A DNA stretch of 22,528 bases, from positions 1-22,528 of IMG/VR virus record IMGVR_UViG_3300047444_000100. One strand, written 5' to 3'. Shown here piece by piece: positions 2,892-21,206 of this stretch. The position numbers and the translations under genes were made by a program. Position 1 is the first letter of the stretch. Every line of letters begins with the position of its first letter. Under the pieces are notes generated by a model, which had not been told where the DNA came from, did not search any database, and saw only the letters and a program-made list of their open reading frames with translations. The DNA is from a virus.

Positions 2892-3680
2892 TTACCGAAC
2901 AGCCGCTAAAAGTTCGTCATCGGACAGGTGGGCGTACCGGAGCGTGGTCTTCACGTTCTTGTGTCCCAGGAGCTTCTGCACGATCACCACGTTCTTGGTC
3001 TTAGCCAAGGTCCTGGTGGCAGCGGTGTGCCTCAGGGTGTGCAGAACGAAGTCATCGTCAGCCTCGAGGTCCATAGCTTCCTTCAGACGACTCCAAACGG
3101 CCCTGAGGTGCCCGAGGTTGACATCGAACACACCTTTTGTAAGCGCTTCCTTAGCACGCTCAGACAGCGGGATCGACCTAGCACCTTTGGTCTTCGAAGT
3201 CCACAGGCGAACCCAGTCCCCATCGACATCCTTCTCCTTCAGTGCCAAAAGTTCCCCTCGGCGCATCCCAGTGTCGATGAGGACCGTAATGAACCTTGCA
3301 ATCTCATGCTCATTCCACGATGTGAGAAGAGCCAGCATCTGGGATTCCTCGGCCTCGCTGATCCAACGGACCCTTGAGTTGTCCTCGGACTTCCAGGTGA
3401 CCTTGGGCATCTTGTTGATCCAGTCACGATCCATGGCGTACTTCAGAACACTGTGGACGTTGGTCAGCTTGCGGTTGATCGTGCTGTCCTTCAGCACCCC
3501 CTCCATGGAATCCACGAAGGCATCGATGTGGATCGTCTTCACATCTTTGAGCGGAAGGTCACCGACACAGGCGATGAAAGCCTCTACGTTCGTGATGGCG
3601 GTCGAACAGTAAGCCTTACCGAGCCACAGGGGCTTCTTGGCGATCTGAAGGAGTTCCTTAAGAGTCGTAGGGGCTTTCAT
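2892..3680 (-). CDS. int: Tyrosine recombinase (phage integrase family)
   Basis: A 262-aa site-specific recombinase, short but complete. Residues 1-95 resemble a SAM-like core-binding domain. The catalytic domain has Arg140 (TGMRRGELLAL), Lys163 or Lys165 (TSKTKGARSIPL), His214-x-x-Arg217 (LHTLRHTAAT), His240 (LLGHKNVKTT) and the nucleophile Tyr249 (RYAH). The N-terminal arm-binding domain of larger integrases seems absent, so it is nearer XerC/D-like size. The ATG at 3680 follows GGAGGT. It lies beyond the terminator of the replication operon and has its own promoter. With parA and an iteron origin nearby it may resolve multimers or integrate the element; no clear attP was found beside it. 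Confidence 0.93.
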   Translation of the reverse strand: MKAPTTLKELLQIAKKPLWLGKAYCSTAITNVEAFIACVGDLPLKDVKTIHIDAFVDSMEGVLKDSTINRKLTNVHSVLKYAMDRDWINKMPKVTWKSEDNSRVRWISEAEESQMLALLTSWNEHEIARFITVLIDTGMRRGELLALKEKDVDGDWVRLWTSKTKGARSIPLSERAKEALTKGVFDVNLGHLRAVWSRLKEAMDLEADDDFVLHTLRHTAATRTLAKTKNVVIVQKLLGHKNVKTTLRYAHLSDDELLAAVR

Positions 3681-9889: not shown

Positions 9890-11509
9890 TTAAAATGTGT
9901 AAGCCTCAGGGTCTGCCTCAGGCGTGAAGTCACTTTGTTTGTCGAATAGGCGACCTGTGATCCGGTCGTACCCAAGCTTGATCAGGGTTCCTGTAGCGGC
10001 TCCCGTGAATCTGTCCTTCAGAACTCGAAGGGTCGTTGTGTTGCGTTCCTCAGGGTCTTCGCTTTGTTGATTACGCTCAAGGCCTAGCATCAGAAAAGAC
10101 CAAAATCCTATGGAGCGGGATCCCTTGAAAGACTTGATGGATACAGCACCTCCTTCCTCATGGGATTTCCCCTCAGGAGTGCTAAGGTGAGAGATTAAAT
10201 GAACGATGATCTTTAGTTCGTTAGCCAACCCTGCAACTTCTTTCATCAAGGTCTCAAGGGACTCCCGCTCGTTTGAGGTATCTGCCATCGCGGTTAAATT
10301 ATCGACGTAGAAGACACGGACTTCCTCAGCGTGAGCCATGAAGCGAATCTTTGCTGCTACTACGTCCCACTCGGTTTCGCCGAATGAGTCGTACATCACG
10401 ACCTTACCATCCAGCCCTTGTACAGCAGCCACACGCTCCTCTCTGGTCCAACTCCCATCAGGCACATGGAACCTACGGCCTGCGATCTTCCCAGCGAGGC
10501 GTGTAACGGTCTCAGCGGGGCGTTGCTCAAGGAACACAAGCCCAACCTTCAACTTCAGTTCTTCAAGGTCATACGCTGCCTGTTGTAGAACGAAGTCTGT
10601 CTTGCCGATACCAGTCCCCGCACCGATGGTGTAGACCTCCCCATACCGGCGACCATAGGTAACCTCGGACAACTTCGGGATGAACCAGGGCAACCCATGG
10701 GTAACATCTCGGTCGAGTTCTCCTATGACATCGGAGACACCTACGATCCCGTCAGGGCGGTACGAACGAGCATTCCAAATCGCTTGGATTACCTCTGCGC
10801 CTTTGCCCTGTTTCAAACACTCATTCGGGTCTTTGTATGGGAATGTAGCTATCTTGCAGTGACCCGGTGCGAACATCTCAGCCACTTCTTGTGCAGCCTT
10901 CTGCCCTGGTCCATCCATGTCGAAGGCCAACACGATTTCATCGAACTGCTCAAAGAACTCCATCTGACGAGCGATGTCTCGCTTTGCACCTTGGGCACCA
11001 TTAGGCACTGAGACTACCGGCCAACGATTCCCTTGAAGCTGGCTAATCGTCAAGCAGTCAATCTCACCTTCCGTTACGACTAACTTCTTACCCTTCGGCC
11101 ACAAGTGCTGACCGAAGCACGGGGGGTGTTTAGCGTCACCGAGGAACTTGAACTCTTTGTCCTGTCCTCGGGTTTTCATGGCAACAACCGTCCCATCTTT
11201 CACATATGGGTACATGTGAACAGTCTTACCGCTAACCTGCCCTACTCGAACCCCAAAGAACCTACAGGTCTCCTCGCTGATAAGACGGGCAGGGAGTCCC
11301 TTTACGTCTGCTTCTTTGTACTCTTTCAAATCTTCTGACACGGTTCTTCCTTTTCGGGTTTGTGTAACTTCACCTTCGCCGTGTTCTCGATATGAGCAGC
11401 CAAAGCAAAACGCGTGTCCGTCTGAATAACGGGCTAGGTTGTCTTTCGAACCGCACTCAGGGCACGATTCCTTCCTCACGAAGTTGCTCTCGGAGCCATC
11501 GTGTGACAC
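9890..11509 (-). CDS. T7 gp4-like DNA primase-helicase
   Basis: A 539-aa bifunctional replisome protein. Zn-finger Cys16, 19, 35, 38 (CPECGSKDNL...FCFGC) reads primase start sites. TOPRIM residues are E147 (VVTEGEID) and D197/D199 (AFDMDG). The RecA-like helicase has Walker A at 296-304 (GAGTGIGKT), YVDN as Walker B, and LISHLSTPEG/GSRSIGFWSF as later motifs. I propose GTG at 11509: GGAGG lies 9 nt upstream, and the resulting start (VSHDGSES) lines up with the SHDSDS start of T7 gp4. The ATGs at 11560 and 11533 lie deeper in the HNH gene. With this start the overlap with the HNH gene is 53 nt. Confidence 0.95.
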   Translation of the reverse strand: MSHDGSESNFVRKESCPECGSKDNLARYSDGHAFCFGCSYREHGEGEVTQTRKGRTVSEDLKEYKEADVKGLPARLISEETCRFFGVRVGQVSGKTVHMYPYVKDGTVVAMKTRGQDKEFKFLGDAKHPPCFGQHLWPKGKKLVVTEGEIDCLTISQLQGNRWPVVSVPNGAQGAKRDIARQMEFFEQFDEIVLAFDMDGPGQKAAQEVAEMFAPGHCKIATFPYKDPNECLKQGKGAEVIQAIWNARSYRPDGIVGVSDVIGELDRDVTHGLPWFIPKLSEVTYGRRYGEVYTIGAGTGIGKTDFVLQQAAYDLEELKLKVGLVFLEQRPAETVTRLAGKIAGRRFHVPDGSWTREERVAAVQGLDGKVVMYDSFGETEWDVVAAKIRFMAHAEEVRVFYVDNLTAMADTSNERESLETLMKEVAGLANELKIIVHLISHLSTPEGKSHEEGGAVSIKSFKGSRSIGFWSFLMLGLERNQQSEDPEERNTTTLRVLKDRFTGAATGTLIKLGYDRITGRLFDKQSDFTPEADPEAYTF

Positions 11510-15040: not shown

Positions 15041-17521
15041 TTAAGCGAAGGCGAACGAAGAATCAAGCACCGACGACAGGTCGAAGGAGCCGCGTTGGGG
15101 AATTCCCAACTCCTTGATTTCCTTGATGGTCGTGGTGATCTTCTTCAACACCTTCACGTCCGTCTCAGCACGGGCAACTTCCAGCAGGTCTTCGGCCACA
15201 CGCTCCGTGATCTGCTCCAGCGGAGACATCGTCTCGTACATCTGGACGAACGTCTCGCGGACCAACTTCGAGAAGCGTGGCATATGGTTCGGAAGGGACG
15301 CAAAGGAGTCGTGAATCATCAGGAACTCTTCGATGCCTTCGTTCACCGCAGCAACGGCCACGCTCTGCAAGTGAGCCGCATCCATCGAGTGGATGAAGTT
15401 CGGGGCGATACTGTTGCGCTGCTTAGGCTGGTCCAACTGGTTCGTCGGAGCCAAGGGAATAGTCGCCTGCTGCATGACCATGACGTTCTGCGCTTTACTC
15501 CACACTTCACAACGAACAACCTTAGTCGGAATCGTACGATAGGCGTTCTCAACGTACAGTCCCATATGCGTTTCCCAACGGATCGAGACATTGTGCCGGG
15601 CGCTCTTGCTAGCCAAATCCTGCAGGTACTTCATCGCAGAGGCAGCAGCCGGGACCGTGGTCGCAACCGCTTCTTCGATCAGGCCAGCAAGGAACTCAGC
15701 GTGCTTCGAGTACGACTTCTCGTCTTCCTTATCCGAACCAAATACAGCCTTGCCAGCATCCTTGCGGATGATGTCGGTCACCAACTGCTTACGGAACCCT
15801 TGCTTACGTGAGCCGTACACATAGGTCATCACAGCACGCTTGGTCACCTTGCGGTCGATACCATACTTCAGCCACAGGGCTGCAGATTCGGCTACCTCAG
15901 GGTCGTTGAGGGCTTCCTGTACCTTGGGGACCACGAGGCCTGCCACGTACGCATAGACGTCCTGGGAAGCGTCTCCCGGTACCAAGTTGACTCGGGTAGC
16001 CCCTTGGACATCGCGGAGCATTGCGCTGTAGTGCTGCAGCCCCGAGCAGGAACCATCGATAGCCACGAAAGTGCGGCTGATGTGGTTCACCGGGTCTGCA
16101 TAGTAACCGGCGAGGTCGAAGCATGCAGCCAAGAAACAGAACGGGCTGTCCGCAACCATCCACAGGTCCATGGTTTCCAATGGGTCCATGGCGATGTCCA
16201 TGATGTCTGACAGGTTCGCATCGGTCCACGCTACACGCTTCTCGAAGGCCATCTTGTCGAGGGCAACACCATCGATCTTCTGAGCGTTGGTTGTAGCTGC
16301 GTGCCACTTGAGCCATTCGACACCATCAGCGTTCAGCTTCTGTCCTACTGCGGATTCAAACAAACCCTTACAGTAATCCGATCGTTGGTGATTGAACCCG
16401 GGAACCGCATACACACGGCCACGGAAGTCCACCTGTGCGGGCTGGAACATTGCGCCACCAAGATACCGGTCGACAACCGATAGGTCACGGCGGATGGCTG
16501 CACGCTTCGAACGGGCTGAAACGAAGTCCTTGCGCTTCATCCCTTTGACGGGACGGGCAGGAATCTTCTCACCAACCGCAATGTCATTCTCCCAGACATG
16601 CTTAAGAACTCCGAGGACTCGCTCGTTGATCTGTAAGGCAACCTTTTGGATAGCATTGACAGCTTGGACGAACGGCGCATCGTTCTGGATTGCCTCGCCG
16701 ACAGCGCCAATCTGACGCTTGCTTCGGGACTTCATGAACGGGAGACGCTCGGCCAGTTCTCGGGCCTTGTATGCACCAGTGTGGTAGTTGGTCCATGGGG
16801 TTGGCTGGTCACGCATGGCTTGAAACTCAGGTGCCATGTACTGTTGAAGCTCGACCACCGTCTCGATGGCCTCAAGGGCCTCAGGGGTGAACAGGAAGGT
16901 CCGAAGACCATTCTCGTCAACCGCCTCAACATCCCCCAATTCCGCACCCTCACGACTGGTGTAGAACAGGTGGGTGCCCTTGATAGCCATGTTCGCAAAG
17001 CAACGGCCAAGTTGGAATCGCTTGGTCTCGTCGAACGCCTCTTGGCCGTCCAACTTGCGGAACTGCTCAATACGAGCATCGCGACCATGGTGGTCCCTAA
17101 CTTCCCACTTCGTGATTTCCTTGTATTCCTCGGGGAAATTCTCACGAACCCGTACGGCCAGCATTTCGATCTCGATCTCTTCACCGAGTTTGCGGAACAC
17201 ATTAGCCACCGGCTCCTGAGCACCCGCACCTACACAGCACGTCTTAAGTGTGTGGGCAGCGAGGCGTTCAAGGTCAACAGCACGGAGCGCCTCGACATCG
17301 GTCGAAGGGCGACCACGCTTGTTCAGGTTGGCATCAATATAGGCTACCCGAATGGCACTAAGGACTTCCTCGAAATACGAGTGGAAGACCTTGCCTTGTG
17401 CTTGGGTCAGTTCTCCTGCATCGGCTGCAGCCCGATCTGCATTGTGGTAACGCTCAAAGCCTCGCTCATACATCATCGCTTCAGCTTCAGCATTGGTCAT
17501 CAGGGCTTTAGTCGCTTTCAT
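15041..17521 (-). CDS. T7-like single-subunit RNA polymerase
   Basis: An 826-aa DNA-directed RNA polymerase of the T7 type. Landmarks in order: DFRGR at about residue 365, DGSCSGLQHYSAML (palm, first catalytic Asp), KRAVMTYVYGSRKQGFRKQL (O/B helix with catalytic Lys and Tyr), SIAPNFIHSMDAAHLQ, IHDSFASLP (second catalytic Asp), and the terminal FAFA foot. All catalytic residues are kept. The start is the fifth codon of the open frame, ATG 17521, because GGAGAGAG precedes it. It is the first gene of the leftward operon, behind a strong host-type promoter, and should transcribe the rest from phage promoters. It is about 60 aa shorter than T7 gp1. Confidence 0.97.
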   Translation of the reverse strand: MKATKALMTNAEAEAMMYERGFERYHNADRAAADAGELTQAQGKVFHSYFEEVLSAIRVAYIDANLNKRGRPSTDVEALRAVDLERLAAHTLKTCCVGAGAQEPVANVFRKLGEEIEIEMLAVRVRENFPEEYKEITKWEVRDHHGRDARIEQFRKLDGQEAFDETKRFQLGRCFANMAIKGTHLFYTSREGAELGDVEAVDENGLRTFLFTPEALEAIETVVELQQYMAPEFQAMRDQPTPWTNYHTGAYKARELAERLPFMKSRSKRQIGAVGEAIQNDAPFVQAVNAIQKVALQINERVLGVLKHVWENDIAVGEKIPARPVKGMKRKDFVSARSKRAAIRRDLSVVDRYLGGAMFQPAQVDFRGRVYAVPGFNHQRSDYCKGLFESAVGQKLNADGVEWLKWHAATTNAQKIDGVALDKMAFEKRVAWTDANLSDIMDIAMDPLETMDLWMVADSPFCFLAACFDLAGYYADPVNHISRTFVAIDGSCSGLQHYSAMLRDVQGATRVNLVPGDASQDVYAYVAGLVVPKVQEALNDPEVAESAALWLKYGIDRKVTKRAVMTYVYGSRKQGFRKQLVTDIIRKDAGKAVFGSDKEDEKSYSKHAEFLAGLIEEAVATTVPAAASAMKYLQDLASKSARHNVSIRWETHMGLYVENAYRTIPTKVVRCEVWSKAQNVMVMQQATIPLAPTNQLDQPKQRNSIAPNFIHSMDAAHLQSVAVAAVNEGIEEFLMIHDSFASLPNHMPRFSKLVRETFVQMYETMSPLEQITERVAEDLLEVARAETDVKVLKKITTTIKEIKELGIPQRGSFDLSSVLDSSFAFA

Positions 17522-17536
17522 AACTCTCTCCAAACA

Positions 17537-17552
17537 TGTGTTGTGTTGTGCA
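17537..17552 (-). repeat. 16-nt leader repeat, copy 2 (RNAP leader)
   Basis: Exact second copy of the 16-mer at 15020-15035. It lies between the -10 box (17554-17559) and the ribosome binding site of the RNA polymerase gene, covering the expected transcription start. A shorter related string (ACACAACACA) sits ahead of nrdB at 18029-18038 on the other strand. Confidence 0.55.
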
Positions 17553-17553
17553 G

Positions 17554-17582
17554 ATTATGCTTCGGCGGTTCCTCCGTGTCAA
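17554..17582 (-). promoter_or_regulatory. Strong sigma70 promoter of the RNA polymerase operon
   Basis: On the minus strand: perfect -35 TTGACA (17577-17582), exactly 17 bp, -10 CATAAT (17554-17559; five of six). RNA would start near 17547, about 26 nt before the ATG at 17521. This is the best host-type promoter in the window and would be the key switch to lytic growth. Confidence 0.8.
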
Positions 17583-17699
17583 GGGAAAGTTTCGGTGGCT
17601 CCGGATGTCGGGCCGTGTTTCTTCTACATGCCCAACTTAAATACTAAGTCCTTGATTCCAAACGAAAAGCATCAGAGTGTATCTAGGTATGTGAGTGGC

Positions 17700-17724: not shown

Positions 17725-17870
17725 AGACTAGTTTTAGACCAATTGTATTTACGTTGGACATATAGAAGATACCTGCACAACATTGTGTGAGACCAACATT
17801 GTAGGGGGGTAGGGGGTTCCTTAGGATTCTAAGGGTTCACTTAAGACTTATTAGGTTGTAAATAACGGTT

Positions 17871-17888
17871 TAATACTAAAGAGAGACC
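17871..17888 (+). promoter_or_regulatory. T3-like phage promoter candidate
   Basis: The plus strand reads TAATACTAAAGAGAGACC. Bases 17875-17888 (ACTAAAGAGAGACC) differ at one position from ACTAAAGGGAGACC of the T3 promoter core and start. It points at nrdB. Many genes in the window have A/G-rich ribosome binding sites that look similar, but no start codon follows here, which favours a promoter. Specificity of this polymerase is unknown. Confidence 0.4.
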
Positions 17889-17901
17889 TAAGGGTCCTCA
17901 G

Positions 17902-18016
17902 GAATCACAAGGGAACCTCAGGCCCCATAGAAGGCAGCGCGACACCCGCAAGCACACCCTGCAATTCACATTAGGGTTCCTCGTGGCTGTAGATGCCTGG
18001 GGTTCCCTTGTGATTC
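17902..18016 (+). repeat. 22-bp inverted repeat with 71-nt loop, followed by U-tract
   Basis: 17902-17923 pairs with 17995-18016 over 22 bp with a single G-U pair, enclosing 71 nt; TTTTTCCTTTTT follows (18017-18028). As RNA this is a very stable long hairpin directly ahead of nrdB. It could be a large terminator or attenuator, an mRNA-protecting structure, or part of a replication origin at the phage promoter. The rest of 17583-17870 holds the palindromic operator, a small hairpin (CCTTAG-GATT-CTAAGG, about 17819-17834) and no convincing gene. Confidence 0.65.
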
Positions 18017-18038
18017 TTTTTCCTTTTTACACAACACA

Positions 18039-18054
18039 CTACTAGAGAGAGTAG
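18039..18054 (+). promoter_or_regulatory. Ribosome binding site in a hairpin loop (nrdB)
   Basis: CTACT-AGAGAG-AGTAG forms a perfect 5-bp hairpin whose 6-nt loop is the A/G-rich ribosome binding site itself, 2 nt before the nrdB ATG at 18057. The site could be exposed or hidden by the fold. Confidence 0.5.
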
Positions 18055-18056
18055 CC

Positions 18057-19049
18057 ATGAGAGATGTAGTCGTACCCAACATTCAGAGGAAGACCGATAG
18101 TCTCCTCACGCAGTACCCTGAGGTCGAAGCGTTCACCAAGCAGCAACTGAGCATCTTCTGGTTGCCTGATGAAGTGAAGGTCGAGAAGGATGTCCAGGAT
18201 GTCCTGGTCAACATGACCCCCGCTGAGAAGCATGGTGTAACGACCGTGCTCAAACTCTTCACCCAGTACGAACTAAAGGCTGGTGCTGAATACTGGACTG
18301 GTCGATTCAAACGGAAGTTTCCTCGGCCTGAGTTCCAAGAGATGGCTGCGACGTTCGGTATGTTCGAACTGGCTATCCACAAACGGTTCTACCAGAAGAT
18401 CAACGAACTGCTATTCCTGCACACCGATGAGTTCTATGGGTCCTATGGTGAAGACCCGGTACTCGCTGAACGTATGAAGTACATCGATGATGTGGTCTCA
18501 CATCCCAACGATCTGGTCTCCCTAGCAGGGTTTGCCTTGGTCGAAGGTGCGATCCTCTATTCGTCCTTCGCGTTCCTGAAGCACTTCCAGCAGCAAGGTA
18601 AGAACAAGCTCCTCAATCTGGTCCGAGGTATCAACTTCTCGGTACGTGATGAGAACCTGCATTCCATGGCTGGTGCTTGGGTCTTCAAGAAGCTGCTCGA
18701 GGAGACCAAGGGTTCCCCTGAGTACCTTGATGACATCGAGGACCGTGTCTATGCGATGGCCCATGCGCTGTACGCTCATGAATGCCGGATCGTGGACATG
18801 ATCTTCGACCAAGGCCCGATTGATGGTATCAATGCGGATCAACTGAAGAACTTCGTCGCCTCACGCCTTAATGCGGTCTTGGAGAGCCTGGGGTACACCC
18901 CAGAGTTCATCCTCACCGAAAACTCCATTGCTGAATGGTTCTACAAGGCCATCAACAGCTACACCTTTAACGATTTCTTTTCCGGCATGGGGTCGCAATA
19001 TCACAGGTCCTGGAGTGAGGAAGCATTCACATGGGACCTCCCAGCATGA
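18057..19049 (+). CDS. nrdB: Ribonucleotide reductase small (beta) subunit
   Basis: A 330-aa ferritin-like radical-generating subunit for a class I-type RNR, which supplies dNDPs or dNTPs. Candidate metal ligands: E72, E104/H108, E163, E199/H202 (RDENLHSMAG). The radical Tyr is probably Y112, four residues after H108 as in E. coli NrdB (FELAIHKRFYQ). The first pair reads E-x-x-x-H instead of the E. coli E-x-x-H, so either E104 binds metal from one residue further away or this is a family variant. It heads a rightward operon; nrdA starts inside its stop codon (ATGA). Confidence 0.94.
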   Translation: MRDVVVPNIQRKTDSLLTQYPEVEAFTKQQLSIFWLPDEVKVEKDVQDVLVNMTPAEKHGVTTVLKLFTQYELKAGAEYWTGRFKRKFPRPEFQEMAATFGMFELAIHKRFYQKINELLFLHTDEFYGSYGEDPVLAERMKYIDDVVSHPNDLVSLAGFALVEGAILYSSFAFLKHFQQQGKNKLLNLVRGINFSVRDENLHSMAGAWVFKKLLEETKGSPEYLDDIEDRVYAMAHALYAHECRIVDMIFDQGPIDGINADQLKNFVASRLNAVLESLGYTPEFILTENSIAEWFYKAINSYTFNDFFSGMGSQYHRSWSEEAFTWDLPA

Positions 19050-20743
19050 ATCTGTACGAACAACTGAGTGAGGAACGCAAGCAACTGCAGGCCGATGGTC
19101 TCGTACCAGAGTGGTACTCGACTTCAGGCTACCAGATGTTCAAGGACAAGTACGAGTATGATACTGATGGCCTATCGGTCAAAGGTCAGTTTAATCGTAT
19201 CGCCATCACCGCTGCGAAGCATATGCCCTTGGGCCTTAGGGACCTAGGATACGAATGGTTCTTCAGGCTCCTTTGGAACGGCTGGCTTTCCCCTTCAACC
19301 CCTATCCTCGCCAACATGGGAACAGACCGCGGTCTCCCTGTGTCGTGCTCGGGTGGAAAGATCGATGACTCAATCCATGGCTTCTATACGCACCGTCTTG
19401 AGACGGCTATGCTCACGAAGAACGGCTTTGGGACCTCAGGATACTTTGGTGACATCAGGCCTCGTGGAACGCCCATCAGTGTTGGCGGAAAGGCTAGTGG
19501 AGTCCTACCTGTCTTCACAGGACTCATCCGAGACATGCGAGATGTGGCTCAAGGTACTGCTAGGCGAGGAGCTTATGCAGGTTACCTACCAGTCATGCAT
19601 GGGGATTTCGATGAGGTCGCTGACTTCATCTACAACAATCCCGATGATGCAAACATTGGTTGGGTAGTTAATGATGAGTATGTGGCCCTGTTGAACACTG
19701 GGGACCCTGAGGCAACCCGTAGATTCCAGAAGATGCTCAAGCTGAAGATGGTCCACGGCAAAGGTTACTTCTTCTTTGTCGATAAGGCTAATCGTCATCG
19801 TCCTGATATGTACAAGGACCATGGTCTCAAGATCAACAATAGCAACCTGTGCAGTGAGATCATGCTCTTCAATGATGCTGACCACACTTTCACCTGTGTG
19901 CTTAGTTCGATGAACGTGGCTCGCTATGATGAGTGGAAGGATACCGATGCTGTCTATTGGGCCACATGGTTCCTCGACTGTGTAGCTGAGGAATTCATTC
20001 AGAAGGCCAAGGTAATCCCTGGTCTCGAGAATGCCGTACGGTTCACTGAGAAAGGTAGGGCATTAGGCCTCGGTCAGTGTGGTCTTCACACGTACCTGCA
20101 GATGAACTCGATCCCCTTCGAGGGCTTTCAGGCTCACATGAAGAACCTTGAGATTGCCCGGCATATCGATGACCACAGTCGCGATGCTTCAAAAGAGATG
20201 GCTAGGATTCTTGGGGAACCTGAGTGGTGCAAGGGCTATGGCCTGCGCAATACCCATCGTATCGCTATCGCTCCCACGAAGAGCACTGCGAATCTCATGG
20301 GTGGCGTGAGCGAAGGTATCAATCCCGATCCCGCGATGGTTTATACAACGAGCGGAGCCGCTGGTGAGATGGACCGTATCAATCCGGTACTCTTGAAGAT
20401 CATGAAGGCCCGTAGCGTCTATACGAAAGCTGTGGTGTCTGATCTTGCCGATAAGCAAGGTTCGGTACAGCATGTTGATTGGCTGGATGAGCACGAGAAG
20501 TCTGTGTTCAAGACCGCATTCGAGATAAACCAGGATGCTGTTCTGAGAATGGCAGGGACCCGTGGGAAGTTTGTTGACCAATGGCAATCCGTGAATCTGT
20601 TCTTCTCAGCTGATGAGGATGAGGCGTATATCGCTAAAATTCACCAGCAAGCTTTCCTAGACGAAAGTATACTTGCCTTGTACTACATTTATACCCAGAG
20701 TGGCGTTCAGGCTGCTAAGGGTGAATGTGAAGCCTGTCAATAA
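19046..20743 (+). CDS. nrdA: Ribonucleotide reductase large (alpha) subunit, compact form
   Basis: A 565-aa catalytic subunit. The redox and thiyl cysteines are C101 (LPVSCSG), C269 (SNLCSEI) and C284 (FTCVLSSMN); N267 and E271 complete the active site. PTKSTANLMGGVSEGINP is the phosphate-binding loop. Y546-Y547 take part in radical transfer, and the C-terminal pair C561/C564 (CEAC) accepts electrons. It is much shorter than E. coli NrdA (761 aa) and has no N-terminal ATP cone, so activity control by dATP is probably lost. I start at 19046, where ATG overlaps the nrdB stop. Confidence 0.95.
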   Translation: MNLYEQLSEERKQLQADGLVPEWYSTSGYQMFKDKYEYDTDGLSVKGQFNRIAITAAKHMPLGLRDLGYEWFFRLLWNGWLSPSTPILANMGTDRGLPVSCSGGKIDDSIHGFYTHRLETAMLTKNGFGTSGYFGDIRPRGTPISVGGKASGVLPVFTGLIRDMRDVAQGTARRGAYAGYLPVMHGDFDEVADFIYNNPDDANIGWVVNDEYVALLNTGDPEATRRFQKMLKLKMVHGKGYFFFVDKANRHRPDMYKDHGLKINNSNLCSEIMLFNDADHTFTCVLSSMNVARYDEWKDTDAVYWATWFLDCVAEEFIQKAKVIPGLENAVRFTEKGRALGLGQCGLHTYLQMNSIPFEGFQAHMKNLEIARHIDDHSRDASKEMARILGEPEWCKGYGLRNTHRIAIAPTKSTANLMGGVSEGINPDPAMVYTTSGAAGEMDRINPVLLKIMKARSVYTKAVVSDLADKQGSVQHVDWLDEHEKSVFKTAFEINQDAVLRMAGTRGKFVDQWQSVNLFFSADEDEAYIAKIHQQAFLDESILALYYIYTQSGVQAAKGECEACQ

Positions 20744-21135: not shown

Positions 21136-21206
21136 TTGGCTGTCGTCTACGTTGGAAAGACAACTACCTCGGGTAGGAGACACTGGTTCGATTCCAGTTC
21201 AGCCTG
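21136..21206 (+). tRNA. tRNA-like element, degenerate, no normal anticodon loop
   Basis: A 71-nt partial cloverleaf. The T-arm is canonical: ACTGG-TTCGATT-CCAGT (21182-21198). The D-arm is good: GTCT-ACGTTGGAA-AGAC (21145-21161) with A14, G18-G19 and A21 equivalents and a T at the position of U8. The acceptor pairs GGCTG with CAGCC, with mismatches and one extra base. The anticodon arm is CTACC-TCG-GGTAG, a 3-nt loop where 7 are needed; the 5-nt variable loop is normal. No CCA is encoded. I read it as a decayed tRNA, a tRNA mimic or an att site derived from a tRNA; a functional tRNA is unlikely. Confidence 0.35.

Follow-up and report, generated by a model that had tools for sequence, protein, structure and literature searches.

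The divergent gap between a T7-like RNA polymerase gene and nrdB in a phage genome contains a long hairpin at 17902-18016, which raises the question of what this element is and whether it belongs to the gene that follows it. The DNA analysed (22,528 nt, here called the window) represents a temperate T7-like phage. Leftward genes encode the T7-type RNA polymerase (RNAP), a helicase-primase, ThyX, a phage integrase and a ParA-like protein, while nrdB and an nrdA-type gene are oriented rightward. The features needed in the following are:

15044-17521, minus strand: gene of the T7-like single-subunit RNAP (PF00940, 6e-94; ~31% identity to T7-group RNAPs).
17554-17582, minus strand: candidate host sigma-70 promoter for the RNAP gene, TTGACA-17-CATAAT (a consensus match only, 11/12).
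17620-17644, minus strand: P_left, putative divergent phage-RNAP promoter towards the RNAP gene (same 25-mer as P_right, 3 mismatches).
17745-17769, plus strand: P_right, putative rightward phage-RNAP promoter GTATTTACGTTGGACATATAGAAGA (repeats P_left with 3 mismatches; equivalent pairs in relatives).
17804-17816, plus strand: G-tract GGGGGGTAGGGGG, located downstream of P_right and upstream of the element (at the equivalent position in all relatives inspected).
17900-17923, plus strand: 5' arm of the closing helix P1 (the reported arm 17902-17923 plus two more pairs; from the fold and compensatory changes in relatives).
17924-17933, plus strand: C-rich single-stranded 5' side of the junction (from alignments and fold; CTTCCCC(A)nACA in most relatives, degenerate in the window).
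17934-17990, plus strand: inner domain P2, GCAGCGCGA..TCGTGGCTGT and ACCC..GGGT, with terminal loop (from the fold; covarying in relatives).
17995-18018, plus strand: 3' arm of P1 (from repeat search, fold and compensatory changes in relatives).
18017-18028, plus strand: U-tract TTTTTCCTTTTT, terminator-like, directly 3' of the stem (in most relatives, not all).
18057-19049, plus strand: nrdB, ribonucleotide reductase (RNR) small subunit, cargo downstream of the element (PF00268).
19031-20743, plus strand: nrdA-type large subunit (closest model TIGR02510, NrdE-prime, just below cut-off).

The hairpin had been described in an earlier note as a near-perfect 22-bp inverted repeat with a 71-nt loop, located before nrdB and followed by a U-rich tract. 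All of this is confirmed. A repeat search returned arms at 17902-17923 and 17995-18016, each of 22 nt, 95% complementary and separated by 71 nt. Upon folding the helix grows to 24 pairs (17900-17923 with 17995-18018) via G-U and flanking pairs. The segment 17880-18030 reaches a minimum free energy of -68.1 kcal/mol (z = -6.7), and none of 200 dinucleotide shuffles was equally stable. The 71 nt between the arms are not an open loop but contain the inner stem, and the U-tract is found behind the stem on the plus strand only.

Homologues in the divergent gap were gathered via nrdB, RNAP and arm sequence. A structured RNA of 120-150 nt closed by P1 is found again in at least 13 distinct relatives, each time in the gap between the RNAP gene and the rightward unit, whereby the groups are unevenly sampled and many contigs stem from one metagenome series, so that the sequences are not independent. 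All 19 elements tested fold with z-scores between -3.0 and -8.0. Covariation, which the earlier note had suggested as a check along with RNA folding, was evaluated in group A (the window, L036, L043, L042, L041, L045, L046 and L056; n = 8). Here 94.5% of the cells are paired as compared to 34-57% when the alignment is slid. Eight pairs in the arms and the inner stem are changed on both sides versus 1-2 in the slid controls, and the covariation score was reached by 0 of 500 shuffles. A further covariance alignment, A6, was left out of these counts because the two hairpin strands are mixed in it. Cells with G-U are more frequent than those with A-C, 23 to 2 in P1 and 7 to 2 in P2, and one U-G pair is fixed in all eight sequences. 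The excess of G-U over A-C indicates that the selected molecule is the plus-strand RNA, and together with compensatory changes above control it is what a selected structured RNA displays.

A covariance model (R1) built from the eight group A sequences matches at the syntenic site in group B (2e-11) and group C (1.5e-9 and 2.6e-7), these E-values being rough. Group D matches are weak individually (mostly E 0.004-0.2, one 1.7), yet they lie exactly at the expected site, and their P1 resembles that of group A (GGAUCAC.. / ..UGGUCC). Group E (L071) and L087 are not matched by R1; L071 has a comparable stem nevertheless. No R1 match was obtained in T7-like prophages of other Burkholderiaceae genomes (L104-L112; RNAP 33-38% identical). 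The Rfam 15 covariance models, applied to the window and its relatives at permissive thresholds (riboswitches up to E = 10), gave nothing credible: apart from tRNAs elsewhere, there were only spurious sub-threshold matches, the 6S, cobalamin and 2'-dG riboswitch models included. An exact-pattern search of bacterial genomes for the group A arm found none, and a comparison of the gap DNA of the window and of a Caballeronia prophage (see below) with cultured phages returned RNR or tRNA matches only. A twister-sister ribozyme, considered for the ACCCGCAAG motif in the loop, was dropped, as the motif is not kept in relatives and has no Rfam match. By its sequence, the hairpin represents a structured RNA not catalogued before, located next to the RNA polymerase gene in a group of temperate T7-like phages of Burkholderia-type bacteria.

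The host assignment is owed to a close relative in one sequenced bacterium, Caballeronia temeraria LMG 29319. Its 47-kb contig NZ_FCOI02000046.1 (L102/L113-L115) carries a T7-like prophage in which the element is followed by a tRNA-like gene. Judged by eye, the ORFs at the contig ends look bacterial (a transporter-like protein and a second integrase-like protein), hence the relative appears to be an integrated prophage and the hosts of these phages are probably Burkholderiaceae. The nearest RNAPs of cultured phages are only ~31-33% identical. The temperate T7-like phages LUZ100, Pasto and HTVC019P likewise combine a T7-like RNAP with an integrase, and in LUZ100 the RNAP gene is itself preceded by a phage-specific promoter (PMC10134795). 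In contrast to these, the RNAP gene here diverges from a rightward unit that starts with a structured RNA. A tRNA-like sequence follows nrdA in the window (21138-21205; Rfam 23.7 bits, below threshold); with an integrase encoded at 2892-3680, this sequence is a possible attachment site.

The repeated 25-mers in the gap are best read as phage-RNAP promoters. Comparable pairs occur in the gaps of L049, L055 and L073; the sequence varies between phages, and both copies match within each phage. In the Caballeronia genome all four promoter copies are confined to the prophage contig. L071, L073 and L077 have extra copies close to where the RNAP gene ends. A second, longer inverted repeat in the gap, perfect over 36 bp in L059, was considered as another RNA and is explained by the two divergent promoter copies. 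The T3-like promoter candidate proposed earlier just upstream of the hairpin (~17864-17888) does not hold, as it does not share the sequence that gives the phage's own promoter its specificity; that promoter lies ~130 nt upstream. Motifs of the TGCACAAC/GTTGTGCA type are repeated near each promoter start and after the U-tract (17540-17560, 17775-17790 and 18028-18040 in the window, and in relatives) and are possible repressor operators.

Structure, conservation at one site, strand, position downstream of P_right and independence of the following gene are all given by the sequences. As the most plausible function, with a probability of about 0.5, we propose that the element is a leader or small RNA transcribed by the phage RNAP, in which the long stem would serve in most cases as a terminator and restrict read-through into exchangeable cargo. 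The plus-strand RNA would be transcribed from P_right and fold into the long closing helix P1 around the inner stem P2, with the U-tract as its end in most lineages. Transcripts would largely end at the U-tract behind P1, or P1 would be cut by RNase III, either way releasing a discrete RNA of between ~120 nt (processed) and 250 nt (full leader). Read-through would then provide lower-level transcription of the cargo, which is nrdAB in the window and nrdJ, tRNAs or small ORFs elsewhere. The transcript end or cut and the tuned read-through are suggested by the strength of P1 and by the U-tract in most lineages.

Like an intrinsic terminator, the element has, in the window and most lineages, a stable stem with a U-tract directly behind it on the strand that is transcribed. 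This arrangement is not kept in all homologues: L046, L063 and L071 lack the U-tract, and in the Caballeronia prophage (L087/L102) it is interrupted. Moreover, in groups A and B the base of the stem beside the U-tract is A-U-rich, a less than ideal composition for an intrinsic terminator. A consensus terminator scan, which permits short loops only, made no call on the element. In L046 the element (10844-10981) is placed between the promoter and the G-tract, thus still downstream of P_right, without U-tract; the contig ends ~97 nt past the element. Since P1 and P2 persist where the U-tract is lost, the RNA domain probably has a function of its own. The closest known counterparts are T-phi of T7 (class I) and other T7-like intrinsic terminators, which likewise consist of a stem and a U-tract downstream of phage-RNAP promoters. 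In the element, by contrast, the closing helix is much longer and encloses an inner domain of 70-110 nt with a conserved core, the location is the start instead of the end of a transcription unit, and the U-tract is not universal. In the Caballeronia prophage, large rightward ORFs, taken to be structural genes from their size and order, start ~4.5 kb downstream of the element. No further promoter copy was found before them with up to 3 mismatches. Hence the element may, in this prophage, also precede late transcription.

The long helix could instead be an RNase III processing site at which the downstream mRNA is cut off from the P_right leader, with the U-tract being incidental. T7 mRNAs are known substrates of RNase III, and their sites, like the element, involve a long helix in a transcript made by the RNAP of a T7-like phage. 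P1 of 18-25 bp in groups A-C is also about the length that RNase III cuts. However, group D has an interrupted P1 and group E a short one, and processing leaves the conserved P2 core and the U-tract unexplained. Unlike the T7 sites, the element has a conserved multi-part inner structure and a U-tract, and cleavage here is a prediction. We consider it unlikely that processing is its principal role.

The G-tract offers a different lead, namely to a primer-making origin; a phage origin element was among the possibilities named in the earlier note. AAGGGG(G)TAGGGG(G) or a close variant lies between P_right and the element in every relative inspected, or just after the element in L046. The T7 primary origin is located beside the RNAP gene and comprises phage promoters and an AT-rich stretch; in the gap, the putative promoters and an AT-rich stretch are seen next to the RNAP gene. 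Transcripts from P_right might prime DNA synthesis. The G-tract (GGGGGTAGGGGG) would then stop the T7-like polymerase in the manner of mitochondrial CSB II, and the hairpin would mark the primer region or protect it. Comparable G-tracts with two runs cause termination of T7 RNAP and of human mitochondrial RNAP, in the case of the mitochondrial enzyme through an RNA-DNA hybrid quadruplex (PMC5027508). Primase-type sites (G/T)GGTC are found on the minus strand at 6.7 per kb versus a background of 3.2-3.7, an excess that is modest and overlaps the promoter repeats. Moreover, in most phages the structured RNA lies beyond the G-tract and so would not be needed for a primer ending there. Overall a replication-origin RNA seems quite unlikely. 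The resemblance to the mitochondrial LSP/CSB II region consists in a promoter of a T7-like polymerase and, behind it, a G-tract of two runs on the non-template strand; here the setting is a phage, and priming and termination are putative. We know of no mitochondrial counterpart of the structured RNA. It is rather improbable that P_right, the G-tract and the RNA form one module in which the phage polymerase makes a replication primer as at LSP/CSB II, the RNA is dedicated to replication or acts in trans, and the accessory genes are merely parked behind.

A trans-acting small RNA, serving for example as decoy for a host protein or in counter-defence, with the U-tract as its mere 3' end, would suit a structure that is kept while the sequence changes. 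It would also suit group D, where no phage core gene follows for several hundred bases and tandem P_right promoters yield the element as their main conserved product. The lack of matches to 6S or any other Rfam family speaks against it, and we regard it as distinctly unlikely.

As to the gene behind the element, nrdB follows in the window, L036, L042, L043 and L045. Class II nrdJ (TIGR02505) is found instead in L041, L053 and L071, and by sequence also in L055 and L056. In group D the element is followed by tRNA-Asn, tRNA-Trp, other tRNAs or small ORFs, and in group C likewise by tRNA genes or small ORFs. L041 and L042 are particularly instructive: their elements are 97% identical, and right after the U-tract one continues with nrdJ and the other with nrdB (23% ungapped identity downstream). 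Hence the element belongs to the phage leader and not to the following gene. It is always located downstream of the phage's own promoter, before differing genes. A 5'-UTR regulator of the RNR gene, e.g. a dNTP-sensing riboswitch, would fit the nrdB or nrdJ found in L071 and in all group A and B phages with a visible downstream gene, and known nrd leader attenuators and riboswitches are likewise structured RNAs between promoter and RNR gene. Such a regulator should be constantly associated with the gene it regulates. The element also precedes unrelated genes, nrdB and nrdJ are exchanged behind a nearly unchanged copy, and no Rfam riboswitch matches up to E = 10; thus it is not an RNR-specific riboswitch, and we rate RNR regulation as very unlikely. 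Of the regulatory RNA or attenuator suggested in the earlier note, the structured, regulatory RNA stands (conserved architecture, compensatory changes, G-U asymmetry and directional U-tract) and an attenuator or terminator is plausible, while a tie to nrdB as such finds no support.

A DNA-level inverted repeat (cruciform, recombination or cassette-exchange site) is hardly credible: the cargo genes do change exactly at the 3' edge of the element, and the contigs L037 and L044, which come from different samples, both begin at one identical base of its 3' arm, but tolerance of G-U and not A-C (23:2) and the fixed U-G pair (8/8) are signatures of RNA.

In our preferred reading, the element is a phage leader RNA with a usually terminating stem. 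It represents a structured-RNA family, uncatalogued so far, in a branch of temperate T7-like phages about which little is known. The locus represents a natural cassette site, at which class II and class I RNRs are swapped behind a leader that stays the same, and the phages supply several natural pairs of T7-like RNAPs with differing promoter specificity. About 250 nt combine a phage-specific promoter with a G-tract and an RNA that are both conserved, and they occur in the sequenced Caballeronia temeraria LMG 29319, a clear reason for mapping transcripts at this locus.
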